A DNA stretch of 35,956 nucleotides, taken from a virus. The stretch spans positions 1 through 35,956 of IMG/VR virus record IMGVR_UViG_3300035698_024727. The stretch is one strand, 5' to 3'. The notes under the pieces are model-generated. The model worked only from the letters and a program-made list of their open reading frames with translations, had not been told where the DNA came from and ran no database searches. Positions 4,119 through 29,201 of the stretch are shown one piece after another. The position numbers and the translations under genes are program-made. Position 1 is the stretch's first letter; every line of letters starts with the position of its first letter.

Positions 4119-4982
4119 TTATTTTCTCATTTGACTATAAACTTTTTCCATCTTATCTCTAAAATCAGGATTCTTCCACCTTTCTTGCATATTCTTTCTT
4201 TGCTTTTCTTTATATTCAGGCAAACTAATTGCTGCCTTTCTTTTTTCCATAATTTCTTTTCTTTTTTCTTTATCCTTCCACATATTTTTTGATTTTATAG
4301 AAATATTTTTTCTTCTCGTATCGGTATAGCTTTTTTTTCTAGATTCTAAAGTTTTGCTTCTCCATTCTTTATCTTTCCACAATTCTTTAATTCGCGCTGA
4401 ATGCTCTTTTTTTCTATCGACATTCCATGCTTTTTTTGATCTATCAGAAATTCTTTTTAATTCTTCTGGGTCAGAAAGCCTTATCTCCCATGTCTTTTTT
4501 ACATTCTCTTTATGCTTTTCACTTTTAAGATATGGAAGAGTCCCCAAATTATATCCAGAACTAGGATCACTCCACGCTTTTTTTAATCCAAGACTTTTCT
4601 TTTTTTGAATTTCTCTACTAAAAGCCATCTCTTGTTCGCCATTCGTTAAGTTCGTTAATGAACCTGTTTTTAAATCTATTCGTCCCACGGCTTTAATTAG
4701 CTTACTTTCAAGCTTAAATGCGGATACTTGATCCATATTAACTTTAATTTTCTTAACAATAGGTTCTTTGCCTGATTTTCTAATTGCATTAATTTTTTTC
4801 TCAAATAAAAAAGATGGAATACTTGCATGTTCAAGATGTCTTTTCCACCGTCTTCCACATCCTTTCCCAATATAAATAAGTTCAAACTTAACTTTTATCC
4901 TCCCTTTATTTCCAAACTTATATTCATATTTTCCAGGCTTTCTTGGGTCCATATATGCGTAAACGTAATGTTTATTTTTCAT
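4119..4982 (-). CDS. GIY-YIG homing endonuclease, free-standing, 287 aa
   Basis: I start at MKNKHYVYAYMDP because AAGGAG lies just upstream; an 18-residue longer reading lacks this support. The GIY-YIG domain spans about residues 1-120: YVYAYMD, then FELIYIGKGCGRRWKRH carrying the Y-I-G and the Arg, and a later Glu in ESKLIKAVGRIDLKTG with SLTNLTNGE. Residues 130-287 hold several short basic helices built on W-K-(D/N)-x-(E/D)-x-R, resembling NUMOD3-type DNA-binding repeats. It would cut a homing site in an allele lacking the insertion. It sits between two tail genes, is AT- and Lys-rich unlike its neighbours, and is flanked by an 11-base repeat, all signs of a mobile gene. Confidence 0.88.
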   Translation of the reverse strand: MKNKHYVYAYMDPRKPGKYEYKFGNKGRIKVKFELIYIGKGCGRRWKRHLEHASIPSFLFEKKINAIRKSGKEPIVKKIKVNMDQVSAFKLESKLIKAVGRIDLKTGSLTNLTNGEQEMAFSREIQKKKSLGLKKAWSDPSSGYNLGTLPYLKSEKHKENVKKTWEIRLSDPEELKRISDRSKKAWNVDRKKEHSARIKELWKDKEWRSKTLESRKKSYTDTRRKNISIKSKNMWKDKEKRKEIMEKRKAAISLPEYKEKQRKNMQERWKNPDFRDKMEKVYSQMRK

Positions 4983-4984
4983 AA

Positions 4985-4995
4985 TGAATCTCCTT
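4985..4995. repeat. 11-base direct repeat, right copy, and ribosome site of the GIY-YIG gene
   Basis: This copy is identical to 4106-4116. On the minus strand it supplies the AAGGAG in front of the endonuclease ATG at 4982. The interval between the copies holds the whole endonuclease gene. Confidence 0.7.
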
Positions 4996-5007
4996 TGCAG
5001 ATTCCCT

Positions 5008-5085
5008 TTAAAAAAAACTTGTAGCAGAGGAGTCAAAGGAATCTCCCTTTTCGGTGATCAACCTAGCTACAAGAAGTTCTGACAT
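5008..5085 (-). CDS. Short ORF before the GIY-YIG gene, 25 aa; possible severed gene start
   Basis: An ATG at 5085 preceded by AGAGGAAGAT opens MSELLVARLITEKGDSFDSS and ends ATSFF before a TAA. It occupies most of the space between the tail-tube-like gene and the endonuclease. The ribosome site is good, but 25 residues is too short to judge. It may be a real small peptide, a leader, or the 5' remnant of a gene displaced by the mobile element. It does not clearly match the start of the following tail gene (MSGAYLSN). Confidence 0.35.
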   Translation of the reverse strand: MSELLVARLITEKGDSFDSSATSFF

Positions 5086-13738: not shown

Positions 13739-15721
13739 CTAAACATAAGGAACATTCGATACAATAGTCACCCTCATCTCCGGAATATCATTCACATCAT
13801 CGTACAGGGCGATGTAAGGAAAGTCCGTAAGGATAATGCTATCATCAGCATTCGTAGGCGTTGTTCCATTAAACTCAACATTCGGCTGGAGGACAGTCAA
13901 TTGGTACTGCGTAGCACTGTTCCCTAGAGCAGTGGTACTAATGTACGAACTGGAGGTAAACACCATCGACACGCTGACTGCTGTTCCATTTATAAACTTC
14001 CGGTACAGATCCAAGTCATCAAATTCAACATTGACGGACCCTTCCATATTCCTCTTCTGCTCAGGAAGTTTGGCTCTTGTGCGATGACCAAGATGATACT
14101 TATCACCATAAAGGTTATTGTTGATGGTACAATTCCACCCCATGATATCAGAAGCAGCACCATCAAGAGAAAGAACGCCCTCGTATCCGGAGAAAGCATC
14201 GATCGTGGGATAGGAAGCAGAGGTTGAAGCTTTAATGGTTTCAAAATACCATTCGTCATCAGAAATCAGAGCAGTGTTATCAGGAAAGAAAACAGTAAAC
14301 CCGGAATCAACATTTGCTCCAGTTCTAACCTCGGTAGCAAGTGTAGCCGATGTAGTTGCGAGGTTGGCATAAGACCCCCCCGCCGTTTTCTTAAACTCAA
14401 GAGTTGCTGTGCCGGGAACACCCCCGGTGATGACTTTAACATAGAACCTTACAGAATCTCCTCCATCAGACCCAATGTAATCACCCCATGTAACCGGAGC
14501 CGATGTAGTAAGAGTTGTATCGAAATTAAAGATTACATATGTCGTAGGCGTAATGTCTGTAGCGATGATGGTAAGAAGATTAACGGTACTTGCATTCGGA
14601 GAAGCATAATCCTGAATCTGGCAATCAATGTACGACAGATTATCAAGATAGGTAACAAGTCCGCCTAGTTTTTGAAGGTTATGAACGATCCCAGTATCAG
14701 GATCAACATACGGCTCGCTGATATTATGAACGATATCTTCTGTCGTTCCATCTATGGCGAGAATAATTGTGTTTTCGGAATTGTCAATTGCAAGAGTCGC
14801 ATTTGACTGTTCACCAATGTACCTAATCTTGAAAGCATTTTTTGCATTGCCCGTATTCGTAGACAAAGCATTGGGAGTTCCAGCAGTAGTTCCACCTTTA
14901 GCCATAAAGGTAAAGCCACCCATGAAGAACCCTCCAGTTTCTGCTGTAAGCTCAGCTTGATCAACTTTTGATCCAGCATAAGTAAATGCAGCAATATCAC
15001 GACCCATCTCAATAGACATCCCCGAAGGAAGTCTCGCCCCACCTTGAATCTGGTGAGAAAAGCATCCCCATTCCGTACCAACAACCCAAAGACTGTTCGG
15101 GGTATTGAGTAGGTCAATTGTATCAAGTTCTTGCAAGCAATTACTGTCATCAGTTGCCAACAGATAGTCACTTGCATGAATGGTCGTTTGTCTTACTCCT
15201 TGCTGAAACTGATAAGGACTGTACGCAGCAAGGTTCGCATGAGCATTGATCCCGGCCATCACTTCGCCAATCGTATCATATGACACATTGGTGAGATCAA
15301 GGGTTAAGGTTGCGCCGTCAACAAGAGTTACAGAAAGCTCTGTTGCTACTCCAGCAGTATGTGTGATTGTAAGATCACACGTTGTTTCGTCGGGATTCGT
15401 GCTTTCAATAACAAAAGCATTATCGAGTCGAGTAGATGCAACGGCTCCAAGAGCATGCTTAAACCATGTCTCGAACCCTCTTGGACCAACCTCAACTTCT
15501 GTGGGACCTCCCGCTGATTCAACTCCAGTAATTCTTTTATGGACAGCTCGGTCAGCACGGAGCGCACCGGAAACCAATGCTCCGATGTCAGAAACGACAC
15601 CTTCGCTATTAATCTCCACGAAGTTATCCGGGGTCTGCTGCGTACACCCCCAAGCTCCTTCCTCCGCAAAACCAAGTTGACCTCTAGCTCCAATTGCAGG
15701 ACCTACATATAATGCACACAT
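13739..15721 (-). CDS. Major tail tube protein with inserted domains, 660 aa
   Basis: It begins MCALYVGPAIGARGQLGFAE and shows features common to siphophage tail-tube proteins: RITGVESAGG with RGFETWFKHALGAV near residue 80, and, near the C-terminus, GHRTRAKLPEQKRNMEGSVN, LDLYRKFINGTAVSVSMVF and FPYIALYDDV. The middle, about residues 100-480, is unusually long and beta-rich, with several Ig-like or decoration-type stretches (ATLTLDLTNVSYDTIGEVMA, NATLAIDNSENTIILAIDGT). The length is well above the 150-400 residues common for tube proteins, suggesting surface-exposed insertions. Its ribosome site (GGAGGGATAA) lies within the 3' end of the upstream homing endonuclease gene. Its first codons share a 13-base repeat with the sequence in front of that gene. 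Confidence 0.82.
   Translation of the reverse strand: MCALYVGPAIGARGQLGFAEEGAWGCTQQTPDNFVEINSEGVVSDIGALVSGALRADRAVHKRITGVESAGGPTEVEVGPRGFETWFKHALGAVASTRLDNAFVIESTNPDETTCDLTITHTAGVATELSVTLVDGATLTLDLTNVSYDTIGEVMAGINAHANLAAYSPYQFQQGVRQTTIHASDYLLATDDSNCLQELDTIDLLNTPNSLWVVGTEWGCFSHQIQGGARLPSGMSIEMGRDIAAFTYAGSKVDQAELTAETGGFFMGGFTFMAKGGTTAGTPNALSTNTGNAKNAFKIRYIGEQSNATLAIDNSENTIILAIDGTTEDIVHNISEPYVDPDTGIVHNLQKLGGLVTYLDNLSYIDCQIQDYASPNASTVNLLTIIATDITPTTYVIFNFDTTLTTSAPVTWGDYIGSDGGDSVRFYVKVITGGVPGTATLEFKKTAGGSYANLATTSATLATEVRTGANVDSGFTVFFPDNTALISDDEWYFETIKASTSASYPTIDAFSGYEGVLSLDGAASDIMGWNCTINNNLYGDKYHLGHRTRAKLPEQKRNMEGSVNVEFDDLDLYRKFINGTAVSVSMVFTSSSYISTTALGNSATQYQLTVLQPNVEFNGTTPTNADDSIILTDFPYIALYDDVNDIPEMRVTIVSNVPYV
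15697..15709. repeat. 13-base direct repeat, copy within the tail-tube start
   Basis: CAGGACCTACATA is identical to 16575-16587. On the minus strand it encodes Tyr-Val-Gly-Pro in the first codons of the tail tube. The two copies flank the homing endonuclease gene. Confidence 0.75.
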
Positions 15722-15727
15722 AAGTTG

Positions 15728-16561
15728 TTATCCCTCCATCTTATGAATAGGAATCTTACACATTCCAACTTTAGAAATGTCTGTACTTCCATGCTTAGAA
15801 GTTAATATCGAAAAATCAATATCTTCATTTTTGCAAAATTTCTTTGCAGCTTTAAATTTTGCTTTATTCATTTTTGCATTAATGAAGTTTCTAGGTTTAA
15901 CTTCCATCAATTCTTGAGAATCATCTGTATATGTTACAAGAATATCTGGAATGTAATGTCTCTTCTTTCCATCAATAGAATACTTAATGGCAAATGGTTC
16001 AACTTCATAAAAAGCCACTTTACTTAGTTGTTCCAATATTTGATAAGCATAGAGCTCATAAGAGGAGCGATAAGAAACATATTCTCCATTTTTCTGAGAA
16101 TAAAATTCTCCTTGATAATGCTTATTGCGATTAACGGATCTCCTACCTTCCGCATACGCCTTTGCAAGTCCTTCTGAAACTCGTTCCTTATGTTCGTCCG
16201 TTAGATGCGTTTCTACTTGAGCTTTTCTTATAACTTCTTTTGTTTCATCAAGATGTGATTTACCATAAAAGGGATTACCAGAGCTCTTGCGATGCGAAGA
16301 CCAAAGAGCACTAAGCTCAGGAGAAGTTTTTTTTCCTTTATGAACTTTACTCATTGCTTTTTTCATTTTCTTAGCCTTCTTTTTACCATGAACTTCTTCC
16401 CAGGTTTTTCCCTTAAGGCTCCTTAAGTATTTCGCCCCATTCTCGTAAGTCTTAAGATATTTTATGTGATGATTATGAATAAATCTTTGACCAGGAAGCC
16501 GTACTCTTTTTTTGCATCCACATTCACAAAAATCACATTCGGATTTGACAAATTTTGTCAT
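15728..16561 (-). CDS. Homing endonuclease with NUMOD3-like and TnsA-like PD-(D/E)XK domain, 277 aa
   Basis: The N-terminus has a Cys cluster CDFCECGCKKRVRLPGQ and RFIHNHHIK, seen in many phage homing endonucleases. A basic linker follows (EEVHGKKKAKKMKKAMSKV) and NPFYGKSHLDET, NUMOD3-like. Residues from about 165 form a TnsA/PD-(D/E)XK nuclease: YRSSYELYAYQILEQL with its Glu, then GKKRHYIPDILVTYTD with the catalytic Asp and QELMEVKPRN with the E-x-K pair. It would cut an uninserted tail-tube locus. The ATG overlaps the stop of a 12-codon tail-tube fragment (ATGA), and the gene ends just six bases before the intact tube gene. Confidence 0.85.
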   Translation of the reverse strand: MTKFVKSECDFCECGCKKRVRLPGQRFIHNHHIKYLKTYENGAKYLRSLKGKTWEEVHGKKKAKKMKKAMSKVHKGKKTSPELSALWSSHRKSSGNPFYGKSHLDETKEVIRKAQVETHLTDEHKERVSEGLAKAYAEGRRSVNRNKHYQGEFYSQKNGEYVSYRSSYELYAYQILEQLSKVAFYEVEPFAIKYSIDGKKRHYIPDILVTYTDDSQELMEVKPRNFINAKMNKAKFKAAKKFCKNEDIDFSILTSKHGSTDISKVGMCKIPIHKMEG

Positions 16562-16596
16562 TTCAAAAAACCTTCAGGACCTACATAGAGAGTCAT
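16558..16596 (-). pseudogene. Remnant 5' end of the tail-tube gene (12 codons)
   Basis: An ATG preceded by GGAAGGAG opens MTLYVGPEGFLK and stops at the TGA that overlaps the homing endonuclease ATG. The first residues match the start of the tail tube (MCALYVGP). A 13-base DNA match underlies the shared YVGP. It looks like a severed or duplicated tube start, now acting as the leader peptide for the endonuclease. Confidence 0.6.
16575..16587. repeat. 13-base direct repeat, copy upstream of the homing endonuclease
   Basis: CAGGACCTACATA is identical to 15697-15709 and lies within the 12-codon tail-tube remnant. Confidence 0.75.
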
Positions 16597-16691
16597 AAAA
16601 CTCACATCTCCTTCCTTAAAATAGGAAAGTAATTAACTACAGTAAGTGTTTCTTATCCAAACGATAAAAGGATCCTACCATCCTCTTATTT

Positions 16692-17174
16692 TTATCCTCT
16701 AACAACATCAGAGGTATAAAGCTTTTTTGCTAACAAGTTAATGGTTCCTCCAGCAATGACCCTCGTTCCTTTTGGTTGAAGGCCAAACCTTGCGCTTATG
16801 ATTTCTGAACCAAGCTTCGGAACAAATTCATTCAATGTAATGTTCCGTTTCAGTAGATCAGAAACTTCCCAAAGAACATATGTGATTTCATTGCGCTTTG
16901 TTTCTTCCGTGAGATCTGCATGATAATACTTAATCTCAATATTCATATGTATAGTATATCTTATTCTGGACATATTCTGCGATGTTCTGATTTGATCCTT
17001 TGAGCCATCTATAACCACCACAAAGCACGGACACACAGGGTTTAATACATCTTCTTCATAAAAGTTTCTTATGATCCTGTTATTCTCCGCAGGAAATTTC
17101 TTCAACACTTCTATCGTGTTGAGTACAGCATCTCTGAAATAATTGTCTTCGCCTCTGTAATTAATTACGGCCAT
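16692..17174 (-). CDS. Tail terminator (tail completion) protein, 160 aa
   Basis: It begins MAVINYRGEDNYFRDAVLNT. RIRYTIHMNIEIKYYHADLT looks like the central strand pair of lambda gpU-like or HK97 gp11-like terminators, and ITYVLWEVSDLLKRNITL is the expected helix. It has no membrane segments. Order supports the call: connector, HK97-gp10-like, this gene, tail tube. A terminator caps the tail tube when the tape length is reached. The family call rests on size, position and strand-helix pattern rather than on a signature motif. GGAGAGG precedes the ATG. The downstream gap of 95 bases before the remnant tube start holds no gene. Confidence 0.6.
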   Translation of the reverse strand: MAVINYRGEDNYFRDAVLNTIEVLKKFPAENNRIIRNFYEEDVLNPVCPCFVVVIDGSKDQIRTSQNMSRIRYTIHMNIEIKYYHADLTEETKRNEITYVLWEVSDLLKRNITLNEFVPKLGSEIISARFGLQPKGTRVIAGGTINLLAKKLYTSDVVRG

Positions 17175-23313: not shown

Positions 23314-24357
23314 CTATCCTCCTTGATTGCAAGCTTGCATTATTCTTTCGAACCTGTTATCTTCTCCTGCAAAAACAGGCTTCGCCCCATAATATTCAAT
23401 TGGCTGGAAAACTCTATCGTACCAACTGTCTTCATTATGATCAAATGCTTGATACAGGTACCTTCTGTCTCTTGTTTCATAATACTTTAATAAAGAATCA
23501 CTAAATCCAGGACAAACCTTTCTCATATGTTCTACATCAATGTATTCTAAATTGGGAGCTTCTCTTCTTTCAATTAAGCATGTCAAGAAGATTGCTCCTA
23601 AATTCTGATACCCTACAAGTTCTTTCCAGGTCGATGGCTGATCATATCTAGAATAATGATCAACGGAAGATTGATCTAATTCCATGGGTTGTTCAGGAGC
23701 GACTTTCTCTTTTAGCGCTAGATTCCGAACAGCCATAGTGAGAAGCTCTTCAGGGCTATAAGAACCCAACACAGGGGGTGAAATAAAATCTAAGGCAAAG
23801 TCAAATGCTTTATGAAAAGCCTCTACTTTATATATGACCGCACAGGTATGAATATTATTTTCCTGAGAAGAGATGGACATAAGATCATCTTCACCAAGCA
23901 TATCTTTTAAATCCTGTAACCCTTCAGGCTTCTCCCAAATACAATCTGAATTAACATGAAGAATATATTTAAAATTGCTAAATGATCTGACTATAGCTTG
24001 AGCATACTTCAAGAGCCATAACCATCCATCTCTCTTATCGCTATCATATGTTACATGTTTAAATACCCAATTATGAGGAATTTTCCATATATCCAAATCA
24101 GGCATTTTTTCTTTAAAGGAATTGTCTGAATTTTCCCAAGGCTTTACGGGATTATCATAAGCACAGAGTACATATGCTCCAGATTTTACATAACTCTTTA
24201 ACGCAGACTTCATAAATGGTAAATGCCCCCACCATGAAGTGACGATTATCGCCGTATCCATTTGACAAGGTTTATCATTTTCGTCAAACGACAAATCAAA
24301 CCAATTAGGATGAATACTATAATCCCAACCCGAAGGCGAAGCTTCAGTTAGATCCAT
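23314..24357 (-). CDS. Glycosyltransferase (GT-A-like), paralogue of the next gene, 347 aa
   Basis: Residues from about 33 (MDTAIIVTSWWGHLPFMKSA) look like the start of a GT2-type nucleotide-binding fold, then SGAYVLCAYDNPVKPWEN, and FKYILHVNSDCIWEKPEGLQ with the putative metal-binding Asp. The core resembles 22391-23311, so the two are probably a tandem duplication with diverged ends. The ATG and its GAGGAGATATA ribosome site lie within the last codons of the HNH endonuclease gene (14-base overlap). It ends in TAG. A role in making a phage-specified glycan is inferred from the cluster. Confidence 0.65.
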   Translation of the reverse strand: MDLTEASPSGWDYSIHPNWFDLSFDENDKPCQMDTAIIVTSWWGHLPFMKSALKSYVKSGAYVLCAYDNPVKPWENSDNSFKEKMPDLDIWKIPHNWVFKHVTYDSDKRDGWLWLLKYAQAIVRSFSNFKYILHVNSDCIWEKPEGLQDLKDMLGEDDLMSISSQENNIHTCAVIYKVEAFHKAFDFALDFISPPVLGSYSPEELLTMAVRNLALKEKVAPEQPMELDQSSVDHYSRYDQPSTWKELVGYQNLGAIFLTCLIERREAPNLEYIDVEHMRKVCPGFSDSLLKYYETRDRRYLYQAFDHNEDSWYDRVFQPIEYYGAKPVFAGEDNRFERIMQACNQGG

Positions 24358-24913
24358 TATATCTCCTCGTTAAAGCTTTTTTTCTTAGAACATTTTTCGT
24401 CTTTTCAGAATGATGATTTCCATAAAAAGAATTTTTATCACCAATTCTTTTTTTAGCCAAATCACTAAGCTTTTTTCTGTGACTCTTAGTCCAATTTAAT
24501 CCATTTTCTTTTGCATGTTCTGCATTTTTTTTATGAGTAACAATTTCTAATCTAGAAAGATCATTAATTGTTTTATCCCCCATTGGATTATTATGATTAA
24601 TCTCCTTACCTTGAGGAATTTTTCCAATCCACGTTTCATACATTAAACGATGAAATTGTAAATTTGGAAAATGAACTTTATTCAAAAATAAACCAATTTT
24701 ATAATATCCATATCTATCTTTAACTTTTTTTATAACTTTACCTAAATAAGTATTACTCCGGGCTTTTTTTATTCGAATCACAACTCCATCTCTAGACATT
24801 GCATAATCTTTAAAAATATAAAAAATCTCCCCTTTCCATATCCTAGGGTGCCTCCACTTTCGCTTTTCAATTTCAGTATAATTTAAATCACTCACCAATT
24901 CTGAAATCTTCAT
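24344..24913 (-). CDS. HNH homing endonuclease with NUMOD-like tail, 189 aa
   Basis: Residues 25-80 (WKGEIFYIFKDYAMSRDGVV, with IRIKK after) look like a NUMOD4-type start. The HNH core follows: FHRLMYETWIGKIPQGKEIN, with HNNPMGDKTINDLSRLEIVT and HKKNAEH carrying the paired His/Asn residues. The end has NSFYGNHHSEKTKNVLRKKA, a NUMOD3-like element. It is AT- and Lys-rich. Its start overlaps the methyltransferase stop (ATGA) and its end overlaps the glycosyltransferase start by 14 bases, so it is fitted seamlessly between two glycan genes. It would act on uninserted copies of this junction. Confidence 0.85.
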   Translation of the reverse strand: MKISELVSDLNYTEIEKRKWRHPRIWKGEIFYIFKDYAMSRDGVVIRIKKARSNTYLGKVIKKVKDRYGYYKIGLFLNKVHFPNLQFHRLMYETWIGKIPQGKEINHNNPMGDKTINDLSRLEIVTHKKNAEHAKENGLNWTKSHRKKLSDLAKKRIGDKNSFYGNHHSEKTKNVLRKKALTRRYNGSN

Positions 24914-26987: not shown

Positions 26988-29201
26988 TTACCATCCTCCC
27001 TTTATAATATCAACAATCCGTTCTCGGTCTTCCCTACTGACCCACCATCCCACAGGGATAGAAACATGTCTGTGGATTATGGATTCAAGTTGCGGAAGAT
27101 GAGTTTTAAATTCTTTAACACACGAATGTTGATCATTCCTTGCATGAACTTGCGAAACAGCAACTCCATGTTCTCCCATCTTACGGGCAAAACCTGGAAG
27201 ATCATCAACGAGAATTGTAAATAGCCAATAGGAAGAGCCTGAGTTTTCTGTATAATCAAGCAAATCAAGCCCCGGAATATTTGAAAGATGAACCTTATAA
27301 TATGCCGCATTCATTCTTGCAATGTCCAAATTCTTATCTACAATCTCAAGATTTGAAAGACCAATGGTTGCAGCTATATCATTCATATGAAACTTAAATC
27401 CAGCCTCTACTATATCAGCCTCGCAATTATGAACTATGCAGGAAGTTGTGGCAAAATTCTTAAATTCATCCTCAACTTCTAAACAATAAACTATCTCAGT
27501 GCCATCTTCATATTTTTTTATTTCTACCTGATTTACTCCTAGAGTTGAAGAACCATCTCCCCATAATACAGTATTGAATTTTTCTTTAAAATTAAAATCT
27601 TTAAATTTTTGTTTTCTCATAAACTCTGGAATGTAAGGGCCTATGTCTTCGAGAACCCTTTTCATTCCTTCTATTTGGAACCCTATTTTATTATAACCTT
27701 CTCCCGTTGTAAACATATGGCATTCATACCCTTTTTCATTTAGGAGCTTAACAAGCCACAAAATATCATTAACTGAAAAGCTACAAGTGGAAATTTCCCC
27801 AATGAACCTTCTGCCAAATTTTTGTGTATCCCAGGAAAGAACTCTTCCATCATCCATGAACCACGTGGCTAATAAAAGCTTGGAAAAATATTTGGAAATT
27901 AACTTTTTGGGAATAATTCTATCTTTATTTTTAGAATAAAAAAACTTTCTTAGAGATCCAATATATGCATTTAGCCGAGTATAATAAGAAACTCCTCCAT
28001 TTGGATTATTCCTTTCAGGCTCAGGACCTCTTTCGTTGAAGGAAACTCCAAGTCCTGATAGCGAATCATGTTTCAATAATGCATACTCTTTTTGAAAAAT
28101 GGAATGTCCTTCTTGCAAAATTGCTAACACTGTATCTCCATTTTTTGAAAATGTTTTTGAAACAATAGTCGCATCCCCCAACATTGAACCAATAATAATC
28201 TCTTTTTGAATCTTTGAAGGATATGGAAACGGAGAAATCACTTTATCTCCAGTATTCAAACTTCTTGCTTCAACAAAGCCACTTCGCGTTAAAACTTTAT
28301 GATCTCCAGTAACGATAGCGCTCTGATTATTTGACACTTTTTTATTTTTAATTTCATAAAAATCTCTTCCATTTCTTTTGTTCTTAAAGATATTTTTAAC
28401 CTTCCCAGTTACAATTTCATTAGAACTAAGATCAACTATTTCAATCTCCCCTCTATATCTCTCATTGTATAGGGTGGAAATTTTTTTTCTAGGTCCAGGC
28501 TTATTTGGGATAATGATTTTAGTTTTAGAATGTAGACACCTCATATTAATCCTGCTTGATTCTCTATCTATACCGTACCACCGCAAAAGCTTTGCTCGCT
28601 TAAGTTTCTCTGGAGAATTCATAAACAAGGCTCCTCCATCTCCAGTATTTAGATGCTTAATTGCCTGGAAAGAAAACATGCAATAATCAGAATCGTTACA
28701 TCGGCCTATTGGATCACCACGAAAAATAGATCCAAATGCATGAGCAGCATCTTCAATGATGACGACATTATTATTTGCAGCAATCCCATGAAGAATTTCC
28801 ATGCTACACGGCAAGCCTCCCCAGTGAACAGCCATGATTGCTTTTGTCTTAGGGGTGATCTTTTTCTCAACAGAATATGGATCTATATTTAAAGTGAACT
28901 CATCCACATCAGCCCATACAATCTTGGCTCCCGTGGCAAGGATAGGAGCATTCGTAGCAAAACAGGTAAGAGGCGTTGTGATGACTTCGTCTCCAGGGCC
29001 AATATTTTCCATTGCCAAAGCAAGGCTGAGACCATGCGTTCCGGCAGACAAAGCCACCATATTACTATTTTCCATTCGGGCCTTGAGTTTATTTTCAAAC
29101 TCCCTAACCTTTGGCCCTTCTCCAATCCACCCTGAATGCATGGTTCTGATCAGAGACGCATTCACTTCAGTGTTCATTGCTACTTTAAAAAGAGGTATCA
29201 T
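26988..29201 (-). CDS. DegT/DnrJ/EryC1-type sugar aminotransferase interrupted by an intein, 737 aa precursor
   Basis: The host protein is a PLP-dependent aminotransferase that makes amino sugars from keto-sugar nucleotides: HSGWIGEGPKVREFENKLKA, LSAGTHGLSLALAMENIGPG, IEDAAHAFGS, and FSFQAIKHLNTGDGG with the Schiff-base Lys (residue 182). Residues 222-592 are an intein, after which the aminotransferase resumes CEADIVEAGFKFHMNDIAAT and ends at 737. Without the intein it is 366 residues, normal for the family. The insertion is directly before the conserved GFKFHMNDIAA segment. AAGGAG precedes the ATG. No partner sugar dehydratase is in the window, so the donor sugar would come from the host or another phage gene. 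Confidence 0.9.
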   Translation of the reverse strand: MIPLFKVAMNTEVNASLIRTMHSGWIGEGPKVREFENKLKARMENSNMVALSAGTHGLSLALAMENIGPGDEVITTPLTCFATNAPILATGAKIVWADVDEFTLNIDPYSVEKKITPKTKAIMAVHWGGLPCSMEILHGIAANNNVVIIEDAAHAFGSIFRGDPIGRCNDSDYCMFSFQAIKHLNTGDGGALFMNSPEKLKRAKLLRWYGIDRESSRINMRCLHSKTKIIIPNKPGPRKKISTLYNERYRGEIEIVDLSSNEIVTGKVKNIFKNKRNGRDFYEIKNKKVSNNQSAIVTGDHKVLTRSGFVEARSLNTGDKVISPFPYPSKIQKEIIIGSMLGDATIVSKTFSKNGDTVLAILQEGHSIFQKEYALLKHDSLSGLGVSFNERGPEPERNNPNGGVSYYTRLNAYIGSLRKFFYSKNKDRIIPKKLISKYFSKLLLATWFMDDGRVLSWDTQKFGRRFIGEISTCSFSVNDILWLVKLLNEKGYECHMFTTGEGYNKIGFQIEGMKRVLEDIGPYIPEFMRKQKFKDFNFKEKFNTVLWGDGSSTLGVNQVEIKKYEDGTEIVYCLEVEDEFKNFATTSCIVHNCEADIVEAGFKFHMNDIAATIGLSNLEIVDKNLDIARMNAAYYKVHLSNIPGLDLLDYTENSGSSYWLFTILVDDLPGFARKMGEHGVAVSQVHARNDQHSCVKEFKTHLPQLESIIHRHVSIPVGWWVSREDRERIVDIIKGGW
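27426..28538 (-). mobile_element. LAGLIDADG intein within the aminotransferase, 371 aa
   Basis: Residue 222 is Cys, starting block A (CLHSKTKIIIP). Block B is VTGDHKVLTRSGFVEARSLN with the T-x-x-H pattern. Two LAGLIDADG helices are IIIGSMLGDATI and LLLATWFMDDGRVL, with an Asp at each catalytic position. The C-terminal blocks are VYCLEVEDEFKNFATTSCIV and a final His-Asn (591-592), followed by Cys 593 as the first downstream residue. All residues needed for splicing and two-site cutting appear intact, so it should be active in both. It can home into intein-free alleles. Confidence 0.92.

Follow-up and report, generated by a model that had tools for sequence, protein, structure and literature searches.

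Sequence signs of probable one-sided homing by a TnsA-like endonuclease gene at the start of a phage tail tube gene

The 35,956-nucleotide viral record IMGVR_UViG_3300035698_024727 of IMG/VR (the whole stretch analyzed is called the window below) carries what its sequence identifies as a free-standing NUMOD3/TnsA-like homing-type endonuclease gene, lodged between a stranded tail tube gene start and the intact tube gene. Comparison with related loci leads us to favor, with some reserve, the reading that one-sided homing took this gene into the tube gene, directly behind codon 7, and the start now used by the tube gene was probably brought in with the endonuclease.

Transcription order on the minus strand is g3, a 95-nt leader, a 12-codon ORF, the endonuclease gene, and the tail tube gene (Table 1). 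The product of the 12-codon ORF (16596-16558) is ATGACTCTCTATGTAGGTCCTGAAGGTTTTTTGAAATGA, which is native tube sequence for about 7 codons. As the initial annotation had it, the ORF ends where the endonuclease begins, its TGA overlapping the endonuclease ATG (16561) as ATGA. The severed start has kept its Shine-Dalgarno sequence, GGAAGGAGA, and the ribosome site of the endonuclease itself is weak (TGAAGG). The intact tube gene starts as ATGTGTGCATTATATGTAGGTCCTGCA (15721), 6 nt past the endonuclease stop codon, with TGGAGG 11 nt upstream of the start and within the last endonuclease codons; the claim that the tube gene takes its ribosome site from the endonuclease 3' end was thus borne out. 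From these signals we infer that both genes are expressed. The stop/start overlap is the same kind of arrangement as that at T4 mobE, which PMC2988022 describes as suggestive of coupling.

Table 1 Features of the g3-tail tube junction in the window
Feature	Coordinates	Strand	Basis or remarks
g3, upstream neighbor	16692..17174	-	Product of 160 aa without a family match; its 3' end INLLAKKLYTSDVVRG is intact
Native tube leader plus severed ATG	16594..16691	-	Alignment with L002/L003 leaders adjoining the tube start; hairpin covariation
Severed native tube start, 12-codon ORF MTLYVGPEGFLK (stop)	16558..16596	-	None in relatives
Repeat copy 1, CAGGACCTACATA (minus strand TATGTAGGTCCTG)	16575..16587		Sequence repeat
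Homing-type endonuclease, 277 aa	15728..16561	-	PF08722 E=3.4e-17; PDB TnsA chains E=5.9e-9
Replacement ribosome site of the tube gene, ATGGAGGGATAACAACTT	15722..15742	-	Last endonuclease codons plus 6-nt gap
Repeat copy 2, within intact tube gene	15697..15709		Sequence repeat
Intact tail tube gene, 660 aa, MCAL-type start	13739..15721	-	PF18906 E=1.8e-28; phrog_290

The endonuclease consists of an N-terminal Cys/His cluster, a NUMOD3-like segment, and a C-terminal TnsA-like nuclease. The match to PF08722 scored 63.2 bits (cut-off 26.5), and PDB TnsA chains matched at E values of 5.9e-9 and 2.4e-6. Residues E169, D206, E220, and K222 (E...PD...ExK) align with TnsA and are invariant in the three endonucleases aligned. 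NUMOD3 is weak in the window protein (14.2 bits, below the cut-off of 20.4) and strong in its homologs from L014 (57.8 bits) and L087 (105 bits). No Tn7-type partner, TnsB or TnsC, was recognized on reading the window ORFs, six of whose proteins were scanned against Pfam, and the protein is therefore regarded as a relative of the TnsA nuclease domain rather than as part of a Tn7-like transposon. Kinship of the nuclease domain extends to the T4 gp4-like head-completion proteins as well (phrog_218, E=8e-19). Phage matches of the endonuclease were set aside, being weak and mostly to such proteins, which have the nuclease domain in common. The window protein ends about four residues beyond its homologs (HKMEG), and hence the tube ribosome site may be former tube leader now read as endonuclease codons.

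The window contains at least four endonuclease genes. An HNH endonuclease with NUMOD3/NUMOD4 motifs is encoded between sugar- or methyl-transferase-like genes (24344-24913, minus), and a DegT/DnrJ-type aminotransferase is interrupted by an intein with a LAGLIDADG endonuclease (26988-29201, minus). A GIY-YIG endonuclease gene (4119-5036) has at its 5' end a match to the int-alpA RNA (RF02996, 52.4 bits; 5004-5073, minus), beside which no integrase was recognized in the window. A HEARO RNA (RF02033, 115 bits) lies at positions 130-341 of the phage contig L005, close to the g3-tube gene cluster.

Two scans gave a few dozen (more than 30) loci encoding relatives of the tube protein, designated by L numbers. 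g3 is syntenic with the tube gene in these relatives: with the exception of L014 and L008, in every locus having the tube start on the contig a short leader separates g3 (or a g3-like gene) from that start. The gap is 20-150 nt in relatives, versus 460 nt in the distant L050 (a 35% relative). An endonuclease gene of this family occupies the g3-tube junction in the window, L014/L109, and L087/L008, and is absent from the other tube loci with g3. The 12-codon ORF was looked for in relatives lacking the endonuclease, and none of the more than 30 other tube loci has it. The stranded leader in the window aligns with the leaders that directly precede the tube start in L002 and L003, which are the tube sisters of the window on a supported tree as well as its best leader matches. 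The 12-codon ORF is therefore the native tube start on its native leader. Deletion of the 878 bp between the two 13-bp repeats yields MTLYVGPAIGARG, an L003-type allele; the rebuilt empty site reads MTLYVGPAIGARGQLGFAEEGAW, as in L003. This allele together with the relatives places the insertion just after tube codon 7, in keeping with the proposal of the initial annotation that the endonuclease entered the 5' end of the tube gene.

Several wider searches gave nothing to add to these comparisons. There was no tube relative among 50,697 annotated phages, a scan of viral contigs for the severed junction gave nothing, and no endonuclease-bearing donor genome was found. A match in a genome collection (L090) was discarded as a probable mis-binned scaffold with an ordinary start. 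No co-conversion edge was seen in sliding tube-gene identity to L002 and L003, because these two are about equally distant from the window.

The native leader contains a conserved hairpin with the loop GGTAGG at 16674-16679 and a stem at about 16666-16687 (minus). The GTAGG sequence is invariant in 13 of 13 leaders (window, L002-L008, L016, L017, L022, L026, and L090). In the eight leaders having a clean 7-bp stem, six of the seven pairs change on both sides and 100% of the cells pair. The hairpin, which has no Rfam match in the sources scanned, is possibly a translational operator, and in the window it now precedes the endonuclease rather than the tube gene. A second conserved element, GGAAGTACA...GTAAGCTTCC, lies just 5' of the tube Shine-Dalgarno sequence in L005-L008, L016, L017, L022, and L026.

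The direct repeat reported beneath the residues shared by the two starts was confirmed, the same 13 bases being present at both positions 878 bp apart. Only three other 13-mer pairs lie within 1.2 kb of each other in the window, a count that leaves out the initial 1.2 kb, which is of low complexity, and one short repeat near 21.1 kb present in overlapping copies. The 13 bp are private to the window phage and identical at four synonymous positions. Given the codon usage of this phage, the chance that two codings of YVGP arising independently coincide at each of the four codons is about 0.018, and such agreement was found in 5 of 171 natural allele pairs. The likeness of the two starts thus exceeds chance, but it extends no further than the 13 bp and MT-L versus MCA-L; codons preceding the repeat are different, and divergence is abrupt on both sides of it. 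As four-codon agreement rarely arises by chance, the 13 bp speak for a recent common origin or for a donor and recipient that were very close.

The codons that precede these 13 bp indicate another allele. The severed start reads ATG-ACT-CTC (MTL type) and the intact start ATG-TGT-GCA-TTA (MCAL type). Both are natural alleles: MTL starts are found in L003, L016, and L018, and MCAL or MCSL starts in L002, L022, L005, and L006. The proposal that the first codons of the target were duplicated therefore fits the identical 13 bp but not the codons that precede them. Start type changes at least three to four times on the tube tree, where its clustering is no stronger than that of shuffles (135 of 500 were as low), and the sisters L002 and L003 differ in start type. 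Naming a donor clade from start type was consequently ruled out, since the character is labile and unclustered and the start too short for a tree.

Related endonuclease genes at the same junction provide further comparisons. In L014 a 43% identical endonuclease gene sits cleanly between g3 and the tube gene without a leader ORF; L109, which comes from another sample, matches L014 without a difference over 779 bp. The gene of L008 is 58% identical to that of the window. L008 and L087, a contig from a related sample, overlap by 87 of 87 bases, and the locus they form is two contigs joined by only those 87 bp. Their combined order is an intact g3 ending in INLLVKKLCTIDVDNG (stop), the endonuclease gene, a severed g3 3' end, the native leader, and the tube gene; g3 is the natural target of the related endonuclease gene there. 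The severed end, INLLARKLYYCDVES (stop), lacks a start; it most resembles L016 and L007, which are the sisters of L008, and so is native. The intact and severed ends are 62% identical over 48 nt. Read in this way, the L087/L008 locus mirrors the window, with a native 3' end displaced downstream in place of a native 5' end displaced upstream. In each case the displaced end of the target gene has been kept, as the tube start with its leader in the window and as the g3 end in L008. When flanking repeats were sought in endonuclease relatives further removed, no other clear case of a displaced gene end emerged.

The tube gene of L008 has a 68-nt out-of-frame deletion (L008 580-620) that begins right after GGGCCAGC and follows codon 8, with the remainder of the gene open from an ATG in another frame. 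This deletion, which may be an assembly error, starts within about 3 nt of the break in the window (GGTCCTG|AAGG), and tube residues G7, P8, and A9 are invariant in the alignment. The presence of two independent breaks at one conserved codon, in the phages having the two most similar endonucleases, marks a candidate cut site and suggests that the enzymes cut the tube gene there.

One-sided phage homing events with illegitimate repair and microhomology junctions have been observed (PMC2988022). In the mechanism that we favor, the enzyme would cut an endonuclease-less genome at the G-P-A codons, and the break would be repaired from a donor carrying the endonuclease ahead of its own tube gene. 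The tube side would be repaired by homology, so that the donor ribosome site and first codons (MCAL) would arrive with the endonuclease. On the other side the endonuclease 5' end would be joined illegitimately to the broken end of the recipient, an event that would strand the native leader and start (MTLYVGP). The displaced start would then serve as a loading ORF of 12 codons that passes translation on to the endonuclease gene across the ATGA overlap, and the tube gene would be translated from its new ribosome site. That the intact start was imported is made probable by the MTL versus MCAL types and by the low identity of the two g3 ends in L087/L008. Against one-sided homing, the 13 bp fit duplication of a single allele better (chance agreement being about 2-3%) unless donor and recipient were close kin. 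Moreover, as start type is labile, the intact start could have changed after insertion.

The main rival to a replacement start imported with the endonuclease is a 13-bp target-site duplication, which we consider unlikely although it has to be weighed seriously. A staggered cut, made as two offset nicks, in an MTL-type tube gene would have been filled in around a captured endonuclease cassette, duplicating TATGTAGGTCCTG, and the 3' end of the element would have supplied, or later evolved, the codons ATGTGTGCATTA. Such an event would account for the shared stretch being exactly 13 bp long, confined to this phage, and free of synonymous differences, with abrupt divergence on either side, and it would suit TnsA-type nucleases, which act strand by strand (as in Tn7). 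However, the codons that precede the repeat conform to a type found among natural alleles (ATGTGTGCA, as in L022), and drift would hardly have produced them. There is also no recent duplication in the related L087/L008 case, and 13 nt is long compared with the overhangs of 5 nt or less that homing enzymes usually leave.

Tandem duplication of the leader and tube start, the endonuclease having entered between the copies afterwards, would give two starts in the same order as found. This was rejected as highly improbable: the intact copy has no second leader and is preceded by endonuclease sequence instead, and no relative has tandem starts. An assembly artefact joining two strains is likewise very doubtful. 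The contig is metagenomic, and assemblies break in genes rich in NUMOD3 (the contigs L008, L087, and L109 all stop within one), but repeats are few in the window endonuclease, no reading frame is disrupted, and the junction is ATGA-coupled. Finally, a normal intergenic endonuclease preceded by a chance or unrelated leader peptide, for which L014 with its intergenic endonuclease and no leader ORF might be cited, is barely credible and was rejected because the leader ahead of the 12-codon ORF aligns as the tube's own and the ORF carries the tube LYVGP with 13 identical bases.

The closest known parallel to the end replacement proposed here is found in fungal mitochondria, where mobile ORFs bring foreign gene ends with them and displace the native ones, as at Allomyces macrogynus atp6 and Glomus atp6, atp9, cox2, and nad3 (PMC3630166). 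In both settings a free-standing endonuclease lies at a gene end and the displaced native end on its other side, and the end now fused to the gene is a replacement in the fungi and probably one here. The fungal cases described in PMC3630166 involve 3' ends, LAGLIDADG or GIY-YIG enzymes, and mitochondria, whereas the present enzymes are TnsA-like, reside in phages, and would have swapped a 5' end in the window and a 3' end in L087/L008; the displaced start of the window also keeps its ribosome site. Among phage systems, the T4 seg/mob genes treated in the accessible text of PMC2988022 are similarly promoterless, lie between conserved phage genes, can show stop/start overlap, and are presumed to move by intronless homing. 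They differ in being GIY-YIG or HNH enzymes that are usually cleanly intergenic, and that text describes no displaced gene end. Aeh1 mobE in nrdA and T4 mobA in gene 39/60 are also endonuclease genes inside a conserved gene. These insertions leave two working half-proteins (PMC2988022, PMC5009743), whereas the window tube gene stays whole because a second start has been supplied. No phage endonuclease supplying a replacement 5' end was found in the literature searched, the coverage of which was incomplete.

More tentatively, it is possible that a TnsA-like phage endonuclease gene family spreads by one-sided homing and regularly swaps 5' or 3' gene ends. A displaced start with its ribosome site would then become a loading ORF driving the endonuclease gene, and the replacement end would both keep the essential gene working and remove the cleavage site. 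If the window arose by one-sided homing, it shows a way for a selfish gene to invade an essential structural gene at its most conserved start and leave the host alive, namely by supplying a spare start and borrowing the stranded one. Two mirror-image cases in one phage group would then document from nature how phage homing can end in one-sided repair, and they would predict a cleavage site open to testing. They would extend the gene-end swapping of fungal mitochondria to phages, to another nuclease fold, and to 5' ends.
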